Below, piece by piece: positions 4,261-43,603 of a DNA stretch of 64,000 nucleotides. The first letter of the stretch is position 1. Every line of letters begins with the position of its first letter. Under the pieces are notes generated by a model, which saw only the letters and a program-made list of their open reading frames with translations, was not told where the DNA came from and did no database searches. Source of the stretch: Candidatus Electrothrix rattekaaiensis (GTDB taxonomy: Bacteria > Desulfobacterota > Desulfobulbia > Desulfobulbales > Desulfobulbaceae); NCBI GenBank assembly GCA_032595675.1, contig JAVQMD010000001.1, positions 496,001 through 560,000 of the forward strand, in the 5' to 3' direction. A program made the translations under genes and the position numbers.

Positions 4261-5520
4261 ATGAAAAAAATAAAAACTATTGCGTTTGCCGGTTGCTCGG
4301 TTCTCCTACTCTGTCAATGCGCAAGTGTGGATGATGTGCGAAGGTTGAATTATCAGCTCCGCACCATGAACCAGAAAGTTAAGGAGGTAGAATCTAGCAC
4401 GAAAAATCAGGTGTTGAAACGAACAGCTGAATCTTCCAGTCAGTTGGACAGCGTGGCTGAGGAAACGCGTGAGTTGCGGACAATAACCGAGGAAAATTTA
4501 GAAGCGATCACTCGGATGAGAGAGCAGGATGCGCAAAAAATTACAGAGCTGGAAGAGGCCTTGCAACAGCTGCGGCGAGAAAATCAGCAGATCCGTTCGC
4601 AAAGTGATCAGATTCTCTCGCAAAGTGATGAGGTCCGCTTGCAAAGCAGTCAGGTTCGGCGAGAAAATGAGCAGCTCATTCAAGTGCTTGAAGGGAAAAT
4701 TAATAAATTATCCGGTAATATACAGCGATTAAGTCAGGCTAGGGTCTACGCAGCGGAAAAGAAGGCCCGGCAGGCGGCTGAGCGGGCGGAAAAGGCCAAG
4801 AGAAGGGCCGTGGTAGCGGCGCAAACCCGAGCGAGCGAAAAGACAACTCTGCTGCCGAGTAACAGAAAGGTTCGGAAGAATTACGGAACAGTCGTGGATG
4901 CAGAGCCACAGCAGCAGACGCAGCTGAGGATTAATAAGCCGGTTGTCAATACCTCTTCCACCTATCCCCGGATTACACCGCAGAGGCAGAAGGAGGCAGT
5001 GAGTTCGTCTCAGCAGCAGCCACGGCAGCAAGTGCAGGTACAACAGCCGCCGATACAAGAAGTCCGAGAGGTTGAGGAAATTAAGGAGATACCTGCTGTC
5101 CAGCGGCAACCTCCTGTTGCTGAGTATCCGCCGCAGAGTCAGGGGACGGATATGGGGGATGATTTGTTGGCGCAGGGGGTTTCTCAGTTTAAAGCCAAAG
5201 AGTACAAAACAGCGTATAAAACTTTTGAGCAGGTTCTTGCTGGTCGTCCTGCGAGTGATCAGGCCGCCAAAACTTTGTATTTTATGGGAGAGTGCCTTTT
5301 TAATCTGGATGAGTATGATCTGGCCATTCTTGATTACCAAAAGGTGATCTCTAATTACAGTAGAAATCCTCATAGTTCTGCGGCATTATTGCGCCAAGGG
5401 ATGTCTTTTGAAAAATTAACCGACCATGAGACTGCCAAGATTATCTACACGAAGTTGATAGCTGATTACCCGAACAGCAGAGAGGCTGGGGTGGCGCGGC
5501 AGCGGCTGGAAGGACTGTAA
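4261..5520 (+). CDS. cpoB: CpoB/YbgF-like Tol-system TPR protein
   Basis: 419 residues. The N-terminus has a signal-like hydrophobic stretch ending in CQCAS; the second cysteine could be lipidated, but Gln at -1 makes the lipobox non-canonical. A long coiled coil (about residues 25-190) contains near-repeats of SQSDQILSQSDEV. A Gln/Pro-rich linker follows, then a C-terminal block of about three TPR units (about 300-419: GVSQFKAKEYKTAYKTFEQV and following repeats), as in YbgF/CpoB. CpoB couples peptidoglycan synthesis with outer-membrane constriction through TolA. The E. coli protein is about 260 residues; the excess here is coiled coil and linker. It closes the tol cluster; tlyA starts 11 nt later. 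Confidence 0.82.
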   Translation: MKKIKTIAFAGCSVLLLCQCASVDDVRRLNYQLRTMNQKVKEVESSTKNQVLKRTAESSSQLDSVAEETRELRTITEENLEAITRMREQDAQKITELEEALQQLRRENQQIRSQSDQILSQSDEVRLQSSQVRRENEQLIQVLEGKINKLSGNIQRLSQARVYAAEKKARQAAERAEKAKRRAVVAAQTRASEKTTLLPSNRKVRKNYGTVVDAEPQQQTQLRINKPVVNTSSTYPRITPQRQKEAVSSSQQQPRQQVQVQQPPIQEVREVEEIKEIPAVQRQPPVAEYPPQSQGTDMGDDLLAQGVSQFKAKEYKTAYKTFEQVLAGRPASDQAAKTLYFMGECLFNLDEYDLAILDYQKVISNYSRNPHSSAALLRQGMSFEKLTDHETAKIIYTKLIADYPNSREAGVARQRLEGL

Positions 5521-21696: not shown

Positions 21697-22554
21697 ATGC
21701 AACGCCAGTACAGCTATAATAGCAACCAGCCGGGCTGCGGCGGTTGTCTTCTTATCGTCATCCTCATCCTGCTGGCCACCGGTGGCTGGCAGGCTGTGGG
21801 GAGTTTTTTTTCCGTTCTTATCTACTCCGGTCTGTTCGCGGTATTAGCTCTCGTTGTGGCCTTTTTCGGTTTTACCCGATATATCCAGAGCCGAGCCGCA
21901 GCCTATGCGCAATCCCAGACCGAAAGTCATAATCGCTTTGTCTTTCTTCTGGTCAATATCTTGGTCTGTGTCGCCAAGGTAGACGGCCATTTCACCAAAT
22001 CCGAGTTGCGGACCATGCTGAACTTTTTTCAGCACTCGCTCCATTATAATCAGGACCAGATGTATTGGGTCAAACAGCTGATTAAGGATGCCCGTGATGA
22101 TGAGCAGGATCTGGATGCTTTGCTGACAGAATTTCGCAACAGTTTTGCTTATGAGCCCCGCCTGATCCTGCTGGAGCTGATCTATCAGTTGATCTTTGCC
22201 AAGAAACCGGTCAATGAAGGAGAGCTTAATCTTGCCCGCAAGATTGGGCAATTTCTCGGTATTCGGGAGTATGAGCGACAGACTATTGAAAATAAATACC
22301 GCTATGGACATCAGTACCAGCGTGGGGCTGCTGGCGGTGGTGCGCCTTCCGAGCAGCAGTATTACGCCGTGCTCGGGGTGACTTCCGGGGCGGAATTTCC
22401 CGAGATTAAAAAGGCCTATCGTAAGCTCTCTATGCAGTATCACCCGGATAAGGTAGCCCATTTAGGTGATGAGTTCAAGGGGGTTGCTGAGGAGAAGATG
22501 AAGGAAATTAATGCGGCGTATGATTATTTTCGGAAGAAGTATGATGGGAGTTAG
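21697..22554 (+). CDS. Membrane TerB/J-domain co-chaperone (DjlA-like)
   Basis: 285 residues. The N-terminus is hydrophobic, with two likely membrane segments around residues 15-50 (CGGCLLIVILILLATGG and the following LIYSGLFAVLALVVAFFG). A TerB-like helical domain covers about 80-200 (VAKVDGHFTKSEL…). A C-terminal J domain covers about 215-280 with YYAVLGVTSGAEFPEIKKAYR and the HPD motif in MQYHPDKVAH. This matches DjlA, a membrane-anchored DnaK partner. DjlA normally has one transmembrane segment, so topology is uncertain. A 21-bp repeat array begins right after its stop. Confidence 0.85.
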   Translation: MQRQYSYNSNQPGCGGCLLIVILILLATGGWQAVGSFFSVLIYSGLFAVLALVVAFFGFTRYIQSRAAAYAQSQTESHNRFVFLLVNILVCVAKVDGHFTKSELRTMLNFFQHSLHYNQDQMYWVKQLIKDARDDEQDLDALLTEFRNSFAYEPRLILLELIYQLIFAKKPVNEGELNLARKIGQFLGIREYERQTIENKYRYGHQYQRGAAGGGAPSEQQYYAVLGVTSGAEFPEIKKAYRKLSMQYHPDKVAHLGDEFKGVAEEKMKEINAAYDYFRKKYDGS

Positions 22555-22560
22555 GTGATG

Positions 22561-22791
22561 GATGAGGAAGTCTATTCCGACTGTTTCGAGGTGTATTTTT
22601 TTGATGAGAAAGTCTAATTTTTTGATTTAAAAGTCCACTGGATAGATTAAGAAGTCCAGTGATTGGACTTTCTTATCTAAAATTTGGATTTGGTTGTCTG
22701 AAGATTTGATCCTGAAATCGAAGTTTTTGATTTTTTTGTTGAGATACTTGACGGGGTGATGGTGGAATGTGATCTGGCTATCAGTAGAGCC
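22561..22791. repeat. 21-bp periodic repeat array
   Basis: Eleven consecutive windows of exactly 21 nt, starting at 22561 and ending at 22791. All begin with GAT or GAC except the second (TGT). The best-conserved units start at 22603, 22624 and 22645 and read GAT-N4-AAGTCYA, mostly followed by a T-rich end. Read in the djlA frame, codon 4 of each unit is GTN or ATN and codon 7 is mostly hydrophobic, but units contain TAA or TGA stops. This fills the gap between the DjlA-like gene and the ABC-3C system. Confidence 0.7.
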
Positions 22792-22890
22792 TCGTATCAT
22801 GCTATGAATTGTAAGATGGAAAAATTCTCCAAAAGCTGGAAGTTGGCTTGGTGAGCTGCAAAGAGAGCAAGAAGATATATAGAGCCATTT

Positions 22891-23850
22891 ATGAACCGAC
22901 AGGAATATTTTAATTTCATTGAAGAGAAGCTTTCATTCCTTGCATTCCGTATTGAGATGCGAGGTGGGTTAAATATTTTAGATTTAAATTTGCATTCTGA
23001 GAATTTTTATCTACATTTCTTTAATTTGCTTTTTGATTGGAATCTTAAGAATTTGAATACGGTAGAGAAAAATTCTGCTGGTATTGATCTGATTGATACT
23101 GCAAATAAAATTATTGTCCAAGTCTCTGCTACAGCAACAAGACAGAAGGTTGAATCTGCTCTTTCAAAAGATCTTTTGAAATACAGTGGCTATAATTTCA
23201 AGTTTATATCAATTTCTAAAGATGCCAAAAGATTACGAGAGCAAACATTTTCTAATCCCCATAATTTGACATTTTCGCCTGCCACGGATATTTTTGATAC
23301 TTCATCTCTCTTGAGCATTATCAGTACTATGGATATTGACCAGCAGAGAGGGATCTATAACTTTTTAAAAAAAGAACTCAGATCTGAACCGGATCCTAAA
23401 AAAATTGAGTCAAATCTAACGACAATCATTAAAATCCTTTCCAAGGAAGATTGGAGTCAGGGAACGATGGGTTTTGAAATAATACCGTATGATATTGAGA
23501 TAAAGATTTTCTATAATCAGTTAGAGAAAGCCAAGGTACTTATAGACGATTATAAGGTTCATTATCATCGAATAGATAAAGTTTATTCAGAATTTGATAA
23601 ACAAGGCGTGAATAAAAGCATTTCTATTTTAAATGGTATCCGAACAGAATATCTTGCTTTAGGAAAAAATTTGTCCCCGGATCATTGTTTTTTTTCTATT
23701 ATTGATAAAGTCATCCACAAGATCCGGGAGAGTGCTAATTATACAGCTATTCCTGATGAGGAACTTACGTTATGTGTTCAAATTCTTGTCGTTGATGCTT
23801 TTATACGATGCAAAATTTTCAAAAATCCCTCAGGAGGTGGTTCATGCTGA
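22891..23850 (+). CDS. SMEK-domain protein of an ABC-three-component system
   Basis: 319 residues. The N-terminal region (FNFIEEKLSFLAFRIEMRGG…LNILDLNLHSENFY…NSAGIDLID…IIVQVSATATRQKVES) matches the SMEK domain seen in ABC-3C conflict systems; the IDLID…VQVS pattern resembles a nuclease-like core (inference). The C-terminal half is helical. It overlaps the next gene by 7 nt and all three genes are AT-rich relative to lon-ftsY, consistent with a transferred cassette. The SMEK protein is presumably the sensor or effector released by the ATPase and middle component. Family recognition is from memory of the pattern, not a search. Confidence 0.78.
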   Translation: MNRQEYFNFIEEKLSFLAFRIEMRGGLNILDLNLHSENFYLHFFNLLFDWNLKNLNTVEKNSAGIDLIDTANKIIVQVSATATRQKVESALSKDLLKYSGYNFKFISISKDAKRLREQTFSNPHNLTFSPATDIFDTSSLLSIISTMDIDQQRGIYNFLKKELRSEPDPKKIESNLTTIIKILSKEDWSQGTMGFEIIPYDIEIKIFYNQLEKAKVLIDDYKVHYHRIDKVYSEFDKQGVNKSISILNGIRTEYLALGKNLSPDHCFFSIIDKVIHKIRESANYTAIPDEELTLCVQILVVDAFIRCKIFKNPSGGGSC

Positions 23851-24071
23851 TTCCTGATAATATTCATCCAGAACAGACCATATATTTTAATGGTGCTTTT
23901 GTATTGAAAACAATTCAAAAACATCGAATGATGGATATGCTTGAGTTATATGTACAGACAAGATCTGAACGAAACATGACAATGCCGGTGTTTATGCTAT
24001 GTATTGACTGGCTTTATCTCCTTAATCTAGTAACGTTAAACGATAAAGGAATGGTGGAATTATGTTCCTGA
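23844..24071 (+). CDS. ABC-3C system middle component 6-like protein
   Basis: 75 residues from ATG 23844, chosen because AGGAGG sits just upstream inside the end of the SMEK gene (23832-23837). The pattern LIPDNIHPEQTIYFNGAFVL … DMLELYVQT … FMLCIDWLYLLNLVTL matches the short middle components of ABC-3C systems, probably type 6. Position between SMEK and DUF2326 ATPase genes, with overlaps of 7 and 10 nt, supports this. It likely bridges the ATPase and the SMEK component. Confidence 0.72.
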   Translation: MLIPDNIHPEQTIYFNGAFVLKTIQKHRMMDMLELYVQTRSERNMTMPVFMLCIDWLYLLNLVTLNDKGMVELCS

Positions 24072-25780
24072 AGTCACTAACCATAACCCGTGGGGATGGA
24101 AGCATAATTCGAGACATCCCTTTTCATTCGGGTCTTAATTTTATTGTTGACGAAACACCTATAGAGAGCGGTAAAGAAACAGGAAACAATGTTGGTAAGA
24201 CAACGGTTTTAAAACTGGTTGATTTCTGTCTTGGTGCCAAGGCCAAGGGGATATATTCAGATCAAGAAAACAAACGGAATGAATATAAACTTGTCAAAGA
24301 TTTCCTTGTGGAAAATCAAGTGATGGTTTCGCTTCTTCTTAAAGAAGATCTTTTTCAAGAAGCATCTCGGGAAGTGCTTATCGAACGTAATTTTCTGTAC
24401 CGTAAAAATAAAATACAGCGTATAGACGGTCAAGATAAAAAAAATGATGAGTTTGAAGAAGCACTCACCGACCTCCTTTTCCCAGGACATTATGGCAAAA
24501 AACCGACATTTCGCCAAATAATTGCACATAATATTCGCTATGAAGATTTAAGCATCAATAATACGTTAAAAAATCTGGATCGCTATACTCGGGATGATGA
24601 GTATGAGACACTCTACCTCTTTCTTTTTGGCTGTGATTTTGAACAAGGAGATACCAAACAAGCATTACGTGCTCAAATTAATCTCGAAGAGAACTTTCGG
24701 AAACGTCTTGAGTCTGAACAAACAAAATCAGGATATGAAGCGGCGTTAAATCTTATTCAAACGGACATTGATGAACTCGAACGTCAAAAGGCATCACTCA
24801 ATCTCAATCCAAATTTTGAATCTGATTTGGAGAAACTTAACCAAATTAAATACCAAATAAATCTTGCTTCATCCGAAATAGGCAGGCTTGAGCTTCGTAA
24901 AGAATTGATTTTGGAAGCTCAAAAAGATATGCAAGCAAGTAAATCCCATATAGACTTGCAGCAGTTACAACAACTGTATCAGCAGGCGAGTTCTTTAGTG
25001 AACGGACTCCAAAAAACTTTTCAAGATCTTTATGAGTTCCACAACCGAATGGTGGAGTCTAAGACTGAGTTCGTTGCAAAGGATTTGCCTGAAATTGATG
25101 CAAAACTTGCCATAAAGCGTCAACACTTAAACCGTCTCCTGGCCGAAGAAAAAGAATTAAGTAGAGTTATTATTAGAAGTGATTCCTTTAATGTACTTGA
25201 GCAATTGATTGTAGCTCTTAACACCAAATACCAAAAAAAAGGTGACTACGAAAACACATTGCGTCAATTAAATTCTGTAGAGTCAAAGCTGGATGAACTG
25301 AACAATGATCTCATTAAAATTGATGATGAACTTTTTTCAGATGAATTTTATTTGAAAATTAAAGGTCAGCTAAACGAATTTAACAAATATTTCTCCTCTG
25401 TATCGAATGAGTTGTACAATGAAAAATATGCATTGAAAGTAGATCCAAAAACAGTAAAAGGTCGCAGGGTCTATGAATTCACTGCATTTAATCTTAATTT
25501 TAGCTCAGGAAAAAAACAAGGGGAAATATCTTGCTTTGATATAGCATATACACTCTTTGCTGATGAGGAGAATATTCCTTGTATGCATTTCTTGCTTAAC
25601 GATAAAAAAGAGTTGATGCATGGTAATCAGCTCATAAAAATTGCTAAGCTAGTCAATGCAAAAGGAATACAATTTGTTGCTTCAATTTTAAAAGATAAAC
25701 TGCCAGAAGAATTGAATAGAGACGAATACGTGATTTTGAAATTATCACAAAGTGATAAGTTTTTTAGAATTGAATCCTAG
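24062..25780 (+). CDS. DUF2326-type ABC ATPase of an ABC-3C system
   Basis: 572 residues. The SMC/RecN-like N-lobe has Walker A ETGNNVGKTTVLKLVDFCLG. A long coiled coil covers about residues 195-430. The C-terminal DUF2326 region includes EISCFDIAYTLFADEENIPCMHFLLND, the place of the Walker B/D-loop lobe. It is AT-rich with long asparagine/lysine runs, unlike neighbouring housekeeping genes. In ABC-3C systems this ATPase is the core scaffold of an anti-phage or conflict module. The gene starts 10 nt before the middle-component stop. Confidence 0.8.
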   Translation: MFLKSLTITRGDGSIIRDIPFHSGLNFIVDETPIESGKETGNNVGKTTVLKLVDFCLGAKAKGIYSDQENKRNEYKLVKDFLVENQVMVSLLLKEDLFQEASREVLIERNFLYRKNKIQRIDGQDKKNDEFEEALTDLLFPGHYGKKPTFRQIIAHNIRYEDLSINNTLKNLDRYTRDDEYETLYLFLFGCDFEQGDTKQALRAQINLEENFRKRLESEQTKSGYEAALNLIQTDIDELERQKASLNLNPNFESDLEKLNQIKYQINLASSEIGRLELRKELILEAQKDMQASKSHIDLQQLQQLYQQASSLVNGLQKTFQDLYEFHNRMVESKTEFVAKDLPEIDAKLAIKRQHLNRLLAEEKELSRVIIRSDSFNVLEQLIVALNTKYQKKGDYENTLRQLNSVESKLDELNNDLIKIDDELFSDEFYLKIKGQLNEFNKYFSSVSNELYNEKYALKVDPKTVKGRRVYEFTAFNLNFSSGKKQGEISCFDIAYTLFADEENIPCMHFLLNDKKELMHGNQLIKIAKLVNAKGIQFVASILKDKLPEELNRDEYVILKLSQSDKFFRIES

Positions 25781-25809
25781 TCGACGAGGATGCGTCTCCG
25801 TATCATGTA

Positions 25810-25963
25810 ATGGAAACTCTATGGGATTCTTTTTTACACGACGAAGCCGATATTGAATTTCCAGAATGGCATAAGGATATTTTGTCCGACAGAAAAGAAA
25901 ATCGAAGAAGGCAAGGCCGAATTTGTTTCGATTAAAGAGTTGAGATCTGATAGTCGGCTATGA
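25810..25963 (+). pseudogene. Decayed addiction-module antitoxin (TIGR02574-like)
   Basis: The reading from 25810 gives METLWDSF…PEWHKDILSDRK and then, after a shift by one base near 25900, continues as IEEGKAEFVSIKELRSDSRL to a stop at 25961-25963. The joined product matches the C-terminal two-thirds of the putative addiction-module component family; the N-terminal third is missing. Truncation plus frameshift indicates a relic. Confidence 0.65.
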
Positions 25964-25972
25964 AGATTAAAG

Positions 25973-26040
25973 ATGTTCTTGTCTCTGAAAGAAGCCGTAG
26001 CCGACTTGAACGACGACGCACAACCCTAACTTGCCCAACT
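25973..26040 (+). pseudogene. Remnant of a ParE/RelE-type toxin
   Basis: Immediately after the antitoxin relic, the frame from 25985 reads LKEAVADLND, the typical start of a RelE/ParE toxin, and then runs into a stop. The rest of the toxin cannot be found in the following AT-rich stretch to 26232, which otherwise holds nothing recognisable. Confidence 0.45.
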
Positions 26041-26232
26041 CTGTATCACATATCCCCCCCCGAAAATTATCCCCTCCTCATTACAACGAAAAACAATCTG
26101 GACCGCGACGATATTAGACTTGTCTCTTTCTTCAAATGAGTTAAATTGCCAAGGGAAAATAAAATGGAAAAACCGTGGGTTGAGTAAATTTTATACAATT
26201 CAACCTGAATAAACCCAATTCGGTGGATAATA

Positions 26233-27330
26233 GTGTATCGTCGTAATGCAGTATTTGTTGTTACAGAAGAACATTCCTGTCCTTTGTATCAGGTGGGAGA
26301 TGAATGTATCATACGTGATTCAACAATCTCGGCAGGTCAGAACAAGGAACTCTGCGTGTGGCTGGTGCAGGAGCTGTTAACAGCAATGCGCGACAGCAAT
26401 CTCCTGAAGCGCCGTTTTACACATCCGGGAGCAAGGCAAATTAAATTTGAGTGCGGCGGATGTACCGGGTTGGTTCGATTTGAATACAAAAAGGAGACCT
26501 CCTATTCAACCCTACAGATGAATCTTCTTGAGGCATCAAAAAAACGTGCAAAAAATCAACTTGTCGGGAAGTTCTTCGGTCTTCTTAGGGAGATGAAACT
26601 CTTTGAACCCCTTGACGATTTCGATCTACAGGATCTGGCTCTCCTGATGAAGTTGGAAAAATATCCGGCAAATAATATACTTCTTGAAGCCGGTACGGTG
26701 GGTACGCATTTTTATGTCGTTTTATCTGGAGAAGTGAATGTAGTACGGGACGATAACGGGGTGATTGCCGAACTCGGGCCCGGAGATATTTTTGGCGAGA
26801 TGAGTCTTCTTTCTGGCGAATCGACCTATTCTTCGGTGCATTCAAAAACACCGGTGGAACTGGCCACATTAAAAGCGATAGAATTTAAACGGATACTTTC
26901 ACTCTATCCGGTTTTGCAGGTTTTTTTCTATCGGGTTCTTGTTGAGCGTGTGCAGAAGAACGCTATTCTGGCCGGAAACATCACTTCCGGCATGAACGGT
27001 GAACTCTCGGATATCAACGCGGTGGAACTTTTTCAATTGATCAATTCCGGCGGTAAAACCGGGAGGATTGATCTTGTTTTTGATGAATGCAGGGGGCGTG
27101 TTCTGTTTAATGCAGGAGAAATAGTTTATTGCAAATGCGGTGAATATGAAGGGAAAAATGCTATTTTTTATATACTCGCAAAAAAAGAAGGCCAGTTCGC
27201 CTATGTCAAGGGGATCTCTGAGGAGGAAAAAGAATTGCCGGTTCTGGGAGGATTTATGGGCCTGATCATGGAGGGTTTACATCGTATAGACGAAAATGAA
27301 GCTGGAGAAGAGGGACGGGATGTCTTATGA
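26233..27330 (+). CDS. Cyclic-nucleotide-binding regulator with PATAN (DUF4388) domain
   Basis: 365 residues with GTG start at 26233. An N-terminal domain of about 90 residues carries several cysteines, ending in FECGGCTGLVRFEY; I do not recognise it firmly. A cNMP-binding (CRP-type) beta-barrel covers about 125-245 with LGPGDIFGEMSLLSGE, the phosphate-binding cassette region, though the usual Arg of cAMP sites is not obvious. A C-terminal DUF4388/PATAN domain (about 255-345: GELSDINAVELFQLINSGGKTGRIDL) follows. No helix-turn-helix is seen, so it is probably a signalling adaptor rather than a DNA-binding CRP. It converges on the smr gene. Confidence 0.78.
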   Translation: MYRRNAVFVVTEEHSCPLYQVGDECIIRDSTISAGQNKELCVWLVQELLTAMRDSNLLKRRFTHPGARQIKFECGGCTGLVRFEYKKETSYSTLQMNLLEASKKRAKNQLVGKFFGLLREMKLFEPLDDFDLQDLALLMKLEKYPANNILLEAGTVGTHFYVVLSGEVNVVRDDNGVIAELGPGDIFGEMSLLSGESTYSSVHSKTPVELATLKAIEFKRILSLYPVLQVFFYRVLVERVQKNAILAGNITSGMNGELSDINAVELFQLINSGGKTGRIDLVFDECRGRVLFNAGEIVYCKCGEYEGKNAIFYILAKKEGQFAYVKGISEEEKELPVLGGFMGLIMEGLHRIDENEAGEEGRDVL

Positions 27331-42541: not shown

Positions 42542-43350
42542 CTATATCCCCACATCCAAAATATCCACCATCCTGCCGTGATAACTGCTGCGGATCAGTG
42601 TAACCAAGTCGGCATAATTTTCCACCTTGACGCTCAGGCTGCTGACAGCTGAACCGTTGAAGCCGGGCAGCATATAATCGCCGTTGGCAGCGACCATGAC
42701 CGTATCGCCTGCCGCACCGTGCTTCTGCATGGCTAGCAGACTGAGCATGAGCTGGCCGCTCTGAGCATCAAGCACAGCCTGAATGCGAATTTGTTCGTCT
42801 GCGCTCATCTCAGCGGCAGTGGCCTTTACATACGGGGCCGCAGCATCGCCGGTCAAGATGCCGACATCCTGCGGGTTGTTCGCGCCAAAGCCGTTCAAGA
42901 TCAAGGGTGAGCGGAGCAGTCGCCTGTAGGTGCCAGTGCGCAGGCTGCCGTTCTCGGTGTATCGCGTACTGACGGCGGCAGGCGTTCGATGTGCGCGGCT
43001 CGGCGCACGGCCTTGATAAAGGGCTGCGAGGCCGAGACAGTGATATCCAACAGCTTGTCCATCGGCGGCAGCGGGTCATCGGGTGAGTCTAAGCGTGCGT
43101 GCAGAGAGGGCCGGAACGTGAAGGCGTTTTCCAGCGTGACCTGCATCCCCTCGATGAGCATCTCGCCGATCTCCTCCATGCCGTCCATCAGGATCGCCTT
43201 GATCATATCGACAGGCCAGTTGGGGTTCTTCAAAGCAAGCCGGGCCGCGACCTCGTCGTAGCCGCCGATGCCCTGATGGACAAAGCGGAGCTTGTAGGAT
43301 GGGGGCGTGGTCAGCGGGTTCAGCTCAGGCCGACACCGGATCGTTTTCAT
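42542..43350 (-). pseudogene. Frameshifted HU-like / DUF4469-type DNA-binding protein
   Basis: The first part (43350 to about 42975) reads as an HU-like domain with DEVAARLA…VDMIKAILMDGMEEIGEMLIEGMQVTLENAFTF and ends properly in AAHIERLPPSV. The same frame then degenerates to a stop at 42901, whereas a frame shifted by one base gives TENGSLRTGTYRRLL and continues into ILNGFGANNPQDVGIL down to 42542. A single indel in a GCCGCCG context at about 42975 explains this. The start at 43350 has a GGAGGAC ribosome site. The joined product would be about 269 residues. It could be a true pseudogene or a sequencing error. Confidence 0.6.
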
Positions 43351-43442: not shown

Positions 43443-43603
43443 AAGACGGTATGCTCGAACGTATATATGTCAGAAAGAGTAACGAAGGTAAGTCCGGCTG
43501 ACTTACGTATATAAGTCCGGCGGACTTACACATATAAGTCTTTGGGACTAACGTAGGTAAGTCCGAGGGACTTGTGTACGTTAGTGGGAAGGGGGATGCA
43601 GGG
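43443..43603. repeat. 23-bp tandem palindromic repeat array
   Basis: Four clear units of exactly 23 nt start at 43489, 43512, 43535 and 43558. Most units hold TAAGTCC-N3-GGACTT, a 15-bp palindrome, then a linker like ACGTATA that is itself part of a second overlapping palindrome with the next unit. Weaker units extend one or two periods on each side. It lies upstream of the SEC-C gene in the 490-nt gap after the frameshifted HU gene. Confidence 0.75.

Follow-up and report, generated by a model that had tools for sequence, protein, structure and literature searches.

A tandem array with a 21-bp period stands directly downstream of a djlA-like gene in Candidatus Electrothrix rattekaaiensis, and it belongs to a small family of apparently non-coding, dyad-symmetric tandem arrays in the cable bacteria and one neighboring genus. 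The array is real. In the 64,000-nucleotide stretch of DNA that was analyzed (the window), comparison of positions 22561–22791 with themselves at a lag of 21 nt gave 105 identities out of 210 (z 6.9 relative to dinucleotide shuffles), a value that was matched in none of 2000 shuffles. A lag of 42 gave 97 identities out of 189 (z 6.7), and the runner-up among the lags compared (5 to 60) was 51, with a z of 2.0. When the whole window was scanned in 231-base segments at steps of 10, the top lag-21 identity was found in segments overlapping this array. The motif GATNNNNAAGTCY occurs seven times in the window where 1.05 occurrences are expected, and five of the seven fall inside the array, including one minus-strand copy. 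Tandem Repeats Finder, run with a minimum score of 30, did not include the array in its output. An earlier reading made from the sequence only had described an exact 21-nt spacing at 22561–22791, with ten of eleven units starting GAT or GAC and the first unit lying 6 nt past the djlA-like stop. All of this was reproduced, the stop codon being at 22552–22554 and the first unit beginning at 22561. The features of the locus, identified by lag and dyad-unit analysis for the array and by Pfam for the genes, are as follows:

21697–22554, plus strand: core gene left of the array, DjlA-like, with TerB and DnaJ domains (PF05099, PF00226).
22561–22590, no strand assigned: degenerate lead-in that keeps the 21-bp phase, beginning GATGAGGAAGTCTATTCCGAC.
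22591–22758, no strand assigned: core array of eight 21-bp units, RTCCA-N5-TGGAY-N6.
22643–22679, no strand assigned: local inverted repeat within the array, with 16-nt arms that are 81% complementary and 5 nt apart.
22759–22791, no strand assigned: trailing degenerate units with weak matches to the unit.
22891–25780, plus strand: ABC-3C cassette (SMEK_N+CTD10; MC6; DUF2326), neighboring cargo.
26233–27330, plus strand: gene with cNMP-binding and DUF4388 domains, right of the variable island.

Set in the register RTCCA-N5-TGGAY-N6, the unit is a self-complementary dyad, so each 21 bp carries two inverted half-sites, TGGAY and RTCCA, separated by 10–11 bp. The motif GAT-N4-AAGTCY, which had been picked out from the middle units, is present but forms merely part of this self-complementary unit, and the idea of a single AAGTC every two helical turns is replaced by two inverted half-sites per 21 bp. 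Of 108 units, 99 have A or T at linker column 16 and 101 at linker column 19. Two further inverted-repeat pairs in the array are longer and more widely spaced than the pair at 22643–22679. A stretch nearly identical to the degenerate sequence at 22561–22590 also stands before the corresponding array of another genome of the genus, G004 (the present genome being G000).

Other periodic stretches were noted elsewhere in the window. A second cluster of high lag-21 identity (segment starts 4441–4601) lies inside a 419-aa reading frame judged by eye to encode a coiled coil, and the 21-bp period at 4588–4646 within that frame appears by eye to be ordinary heptad coding. A second intergenic tandem array, at 43480–43572, has a period of 23 and is made up of about four palindromes (AAGTCC-N3-GGACTT and variants); it is flanked by divergent frames at 43350 (minus strand) and 43840 (plus strand).

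To determine how widely the arrays are distributed, genomes were searched with a two-dyad pattern. With up to 3 mismatches allowed, the pattern was found at 18 places in G000, compared with a single place for its reversal. Three arrays on contig C1 (the window array and those from 639307 and from 2122390 on) account for 13 of these places, and the other five are isolated. Across the genus, up to 2 mismatches gave 49 places in six of eight genomes, against 2 for the control, while among 65 other genomes of the family a limit of 1 mismatch gave one match each in two genomes and a control match in one. A covariance model of four units, built on 14 sequences from the genus, detected arrays at E ≤ 0.01 in the same six of eight genomes and in three of the 65 others; similar arrays are thus found in close relatives. 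The three positive genomes from outside Electrothrix belong to one genus (three of its five genomes), and their arrays lie ∼0.1 kb downstream of aspS. Individual arrays have 5–10 units each, and each positive genome has 1–4 arrays. The model match in the window spans 22612–22689 of the core array (G000 C1 518612–518689; E 1.1e-13). In G003, a weak match (E 0.076) was found downstream of aspS, past a gene for an AAA-ATPase with a PDDEXK_9 domain. For 78 further djlA-bearing loci (L033–L110), the best match to the model reached just E 0.84. The nearest relatives of the djlA-like gene are in Ca. Electrothrix aarhusensis (95%), Ca. E. marina (93%) and a Desulfobulbaceae bin (84%), and E. aarhusensis retains both ends of the djlA array, the middle of which appears by eye to be missing. 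Two candidates from G001 were discarded: a protein match on contig C97 is a different repeat, and a model match on contig C122 is a single unit. Two viral contigs matched a 2.5-unit pattern. The match in L250 looks like a chance tandem. The IMG/VR contig L251 carries at 4747–4830 four tandem 21-bp GTCCA-N5-TGGAC units of the same architecture in G+C-rich surroundings, and these units contain an in-frame stop.

Arrays follow djlA in six species (G000, G002, G004, G005, G006 and G007), G001 and G003 not being represented under these labels among the djlA loci compared. They also lie 0.46–1.3 kb from leuA in G002, G006 and G007. An array of G000 beside a PNP_UDP_1 (mtnP-like) gene was at one point counted as a separate locus; this was dropped because its flank can be aligned in part with those at leuA, and the two apparently represent the same ancestral locus. 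G007 has another array on contig C222, G000 has one ∼6 kb downstream of aspS, and in G006 one array precedes argS and another follows hpt. At the loci examined the arrays sit between long reading frames, except at L140 and L144, where the next frame, if read from its earliest potential start codon, overlaps the end of the array. The names djlA-like, aspS (in G060, G064 and G003), argS, hpt, leuA and mtnP-like are based on Pfam matches, and names given without Pfam were assigned by eye. In both G000 (L126 3086–4615) and G003 (L203 1346–2923), aspS is separated from the array by an AAA-ATPase gene with a PDDEXK_9 domain. Near several arrays there are also whole or broken copies of a small protein family that we call TEQ ('TEQIAELLGVEF'), of which a single copy was tested and had no Pfam match: L199 3767–4042, L200 4263–4538, L202 4150 and 5011, L146 5932, L127 2529–2609 and L126 511–624, with others far from arrays. 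Relatives of TEQ are present in six array-bearing loci. The notion that array and TEQ form one unit was rejected, as complete copies on C2 and C3 of G000 are without an array at E ≤ 1.

The genes that follow the array at djlA differ between species. In the window the array borders the ABC-3C cassette, as had been pointed out before. In the same position G007 has a KAP NTPase gene, G004 a periplasmic binding protein gene, E. marina (same contig as G005 C107) a gene without a Pfam match in its first 200 residues, and E. aarhusensis, whose array is reduced, a GMT-wHTH gene and DUF5131. The close relatives G002 and G006 have in common a set that includes DUF2157 (by Pfam in G002 and alike by eye in G006). 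Counting E. aarhusensis, the island thus comprises six gene sets across seven species. Its right border is the cNMP/DUF4388 gene in the four loci where this gene was seen, with counterparts identified by eye at L041 10584, L140 7509 and L144 7310. The interval from the djlA-like gene to the cNMP/DUF4388 gene (22555–26232) varies in gene content in most Electrothrix examined and represents an island hotspot. Because the array persists at djlA beside differing cargo, and because L037 has a SMEK_N+CTD10 gene after djlA without an array, the array goes with the djlA side, and the possibility that it is part of the ABC-3C system was ruled out. These observations fit the earlier suggestion of a boundary, in that the array stays at djlA while the adjoining genes swap between species.

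Several comparisons support constraint on the arrays at the nucleotide level. The dyad arms differ at 27 of 280 positions and the loops plus linkers at 78 of 308 (Fisher p 5e-7; totals summed over four of eight comparisons, with G000 and G002 used more than once). Array identity exceeded that of the fourfold sites of the adjacent gene, a yardstick that codon bias may affect, in seven of seven comparisons, and p was below 0.05 in five of them. For example, the G000 and G004 djlA arrays are identical at 106 of 126 positions versus 56 of 94 fourfold sites, and the G002 and G007 leuA arrays at 126 of 162 versus 131 of 238. For the closest pair, G002 and G006, p was 0.25 at djlA and 0.08 at leuA. 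The 159-bp left flank at leuA is about as conserved as the array itself, with identities of 0.837 for the flank and 0.778 for the array between G002 and G007, and 0.935 and 0.951 between G002 and G006. Since the units of one array are kin, and several arrays are orthologous or were reused, these tests are neither fully independent nor selection-free, and the p values serve as guides.

The spacing of the units is also maintained. Alignments of the djlA core arrays contain gaps of 0 or 21 columns in the four comparisons made, such that the djlA arrays differ in length by whole units. At leuA, 12 gap columns arose from an offset at the end of the slice, and after re-registration the eight units pair gap-free. 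Unit-by-unit identity was 0.75 and 0.77 in register, as opposed to 0.46–0.61 when shifted by whole units. Of the 62 strong dyads (with 9 or 10 of 10 matches) that a free-phase scan detected within 400 bp around 17 arrays, 61 lie on one shared 21-bp phase; the arrays themselves had been found by a rule that uses dyad and phase, and the scan covered every phase. The sole off-phase strong dyad stands 376 bp outside its array, and the shared phase holds even beyond degenerate units.

What kind of function might such constraint reflect? The 21-nt period corresponds to seven codons, and a heptad pattern, D-x-x-[IV]-[QH]-x-[LMV], can be read on both strands. The arrays could accordingly be decayed or short coding sequence for a coiled coil, an explanation to which we assign little probability. 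In six of the 17 arrays one strand is free of stops, and at the aspS loci the reading FDLLIK-[HY]-[LF]-DKQ-[TK]-ERF recurs by eye in G000, G003 and G064 with some silent differences. However, stops interrupt each of the 17 arrays on at least one strand and 11 of them on both, including the window array, where the in-frame stops that had been noticed earlier were found again (five on one strand and one on the other). Moreover, C is fixed at the third position of the I/V codon: 97 of 117 array units end this codon in C compared with 184 of 564 codons in nine window genes (ATC for 111 of 279 Ile codons; GTC for 73 of 285 Val codons). Because the array finder had used that column, the count was repeated with units chosen independently of it, giving 97 of 115. 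Changes by codon position are distributed 72:53:84 over eight overlapping comparisons, without a clear third-position excess, and a six-frame search for the heptad consensus in eight genomes returned the arrays and a few weak matches but no evident parent gene. Coding by the arrays is thus unlikely. Of the two options that had originally been left side by side, the decayed heptad extension is disfavored by the stops, the codon endings and the codon-position counts, and the DNA element with helical phasing is favored over it by the 61 of 62 strong dyads in phase. Alternatively, the arrays may be mobile palindromic elements of a REP or MITE-like kind that spread among intergenic sites and are merely tolerated, their likeness resulting from recent copying or conversion. 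In G006, unit-for-unit comparison of the hpt array with the leuA array gave an identity of 0.74 (0.58 at the next shift); the two show no evident flank similarity, and the match implies at least one copying event. The argS array was found in one of eight genomes and the hpt array in one of seven, both in G006 alone, in surveys of loci extending at most 1.5 kb from the gene; the corresponding sites in the close relative G002 are filled by different DNA, 3.5 kb at argS and 2.9 kb at hpt. One transposase-like frame, named by eye, occurs in the argS cargo of G002. Nevertheless, the djlA arrays are at the same place in six species, there are few copies (1–4 arrays per positive genome), and clean insertion with a target duplication was not seen. 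We know of no transposase linked to the arrays. On balance, we judge that simple spread and tolerance is rather improbable as an account of the arrays.

The competing explanation with the most to be said for it is that the array is cotranscribed with the upstream gene and acts as RNA, with hairpins of 5-bp stems and 5-nt loops or one long imperfect hairpin protecting the 3' end of the mRNA or ending transcription. Columns 3 and 11, which pair in the 5-nt-loop stem, have the top mutual information of 325 column pairs, with 72 Watson-Crick combinations versus 41.5 expected among 117 distinct 26-mers. Other pairs of this stem rank lower (5–9 is 13th and 2–12 is 219th), many of the high ranks belong to neighboring linker columns, and the pair 0/14 is without covariation; this last point and the A/T preference at linker columns 16 and 19 count against a fold. 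In a 14-row alignment, three of five measures put the 5-nt-loop stem above shuffles (2/500 each); the two direct counts of double-sided changes did not clearly do so (43/500 and 74/500), and the alternative 6-nt-loop stem was not above shuffles (56/500 or more). Fold predictions for both strands of 14 arrays, with 100 shuffles each, gave z values from −2.5 to −6.1. The arms seen in the second genus differ yet still pair; they include ATCGA/TCGAT, ATTGA/TCAAT and ATCTA/TAGAT. The covarying pair and the substitute paired arms favor a folding strand, be it RNA or single-stranded DNA, over one fixed protein site. Template switching in imperfect palindromes could yield covariation without selection. 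The sense strand at djlA has 43 G-U and 4 A-C combinations in six species, and G-T pairing in REPs has been interpreted, in a passage of PMC3733652, as a sign of RNA function. However, the G-over-C skew is 0.43 in the array and 0.33 in the adjoining intergenic DNA, and the ratios on the leuA strand are weak (5:6, 6:4 and 6:1); the strand comparison was discarded because the skew confounds it. No intrinsic terminator (a G+C-rich stem followed by a T run) was found in 22000–23200, where shuffles led us to expect 1.0, and the array was rejected as one. Likewise, seven array-bearing loci gave no Rfam match at the gathering score. A string of hairpins does not require an exact 21-nt phase across degenerate units, and a phase that is kept across 150–200 bp fits better with helical phasing. 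An RNA array holds distinctly less than an even chance in our estimation, and a docking array is favored.

We infer such docking because dyads recur every 21 bp and inverted half-sites every 10–11 bp, or one helical turn. A putative dimeric DNA-binding protein would bind the phased dyads cooperatively on one helical face and so coat the array. Coated in this way, the array might insulate the core gene from the exchangeable island or form a topological node between them, and binding could also protect the end of the gene beside the island. This phased docking array is the reading that we tentatively prefer, at a confidence approaching but not reaching an even chance. Several results weigh against it: the covariation of columns 3 and 11 and the variant paired arms of the second genus suit a fold better, the argS and hpt arrays were found only in G006, at leuA the left flank matches the array in conservation, and the comparison of G002 with G006 gave p values of 0.25 and 0.08. 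A more specific version, which we consider doubtful but worth stating, is a lineage-specific docking lattice with half-sites at every helical turn and phase kept over ∼150–200 bp. Its reader would be a putative cable-bacterial protein, and it would fix the border between core and island and mark or insulate insertion hotspots.

The array is a conserved intergenic element that is seemingly undescribed for cable bacteria in the open-licence literature searched. Among the matches listed for open-licence full texts on cable bacteria with repeats or palindromes there was no description of such an array, and the portions of PMC10580974 and PMC10926707 that concern repeats deal with protein repeats, insertion sequences and assembly. 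The element adjoins housekeeping genes (djlA-like, aspS and argS), and at djlA it edges an island with species-varying genes. It therefore offers a testable handle on how exchangeable islands get bordered, and if its protein were found it would provide a clean case of helically phased, alternating half-sites.

Known systems resemble the array in different respects. Iteron and parC-type centromere arrays consist of tandem sites that are phased by helical turns and bind protein cooperatively, and the present arrays share with them the tandem, helically phased sites. In contrast to these systems, however, the arrays occur at several chromosomal loci, a ParA-like neighbor is present at L126 alone among 11 loci, and no par or rep gene was found beside the window array among the reading frames and Pfam matches. 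Heptad repeats that encode coiled coils have the same 21-nt period and the D-x-x-[IV]-x-x-L pattern, but the arrays are intergenic and stop-bearing, and their constraint tracks paired bases rather than codons. REPs and BIMEs, like the array with its extragenic dyad RTCCA-N5-TGGAY, are short extragenic palindromes. According to passages of PMC2817692, REPs usually exceed 100 copies, while families of 20–100 units or fewer exist according to a portion of PMC3733652; the arrays number 1–4 per positive genome and keep one fixed 21-bp lattice. The column table of 108 units contains no fixed tetranucleotide corresponding to the terminal GTAG or CGTC tag of REPs, as that tag is given in PMC3733652. 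We accordingly do not file the array as a REP, given the missing tag and the low copy number and notwithstanding the existence of small REP families in the passages cited. BIMEs are REPs arranged at regular spacing in alternating orientation, with reported binding of IHF, gyrase and Pol I (PMC2817692, in part), and by analogy the action of the array would be like that of a BIME.
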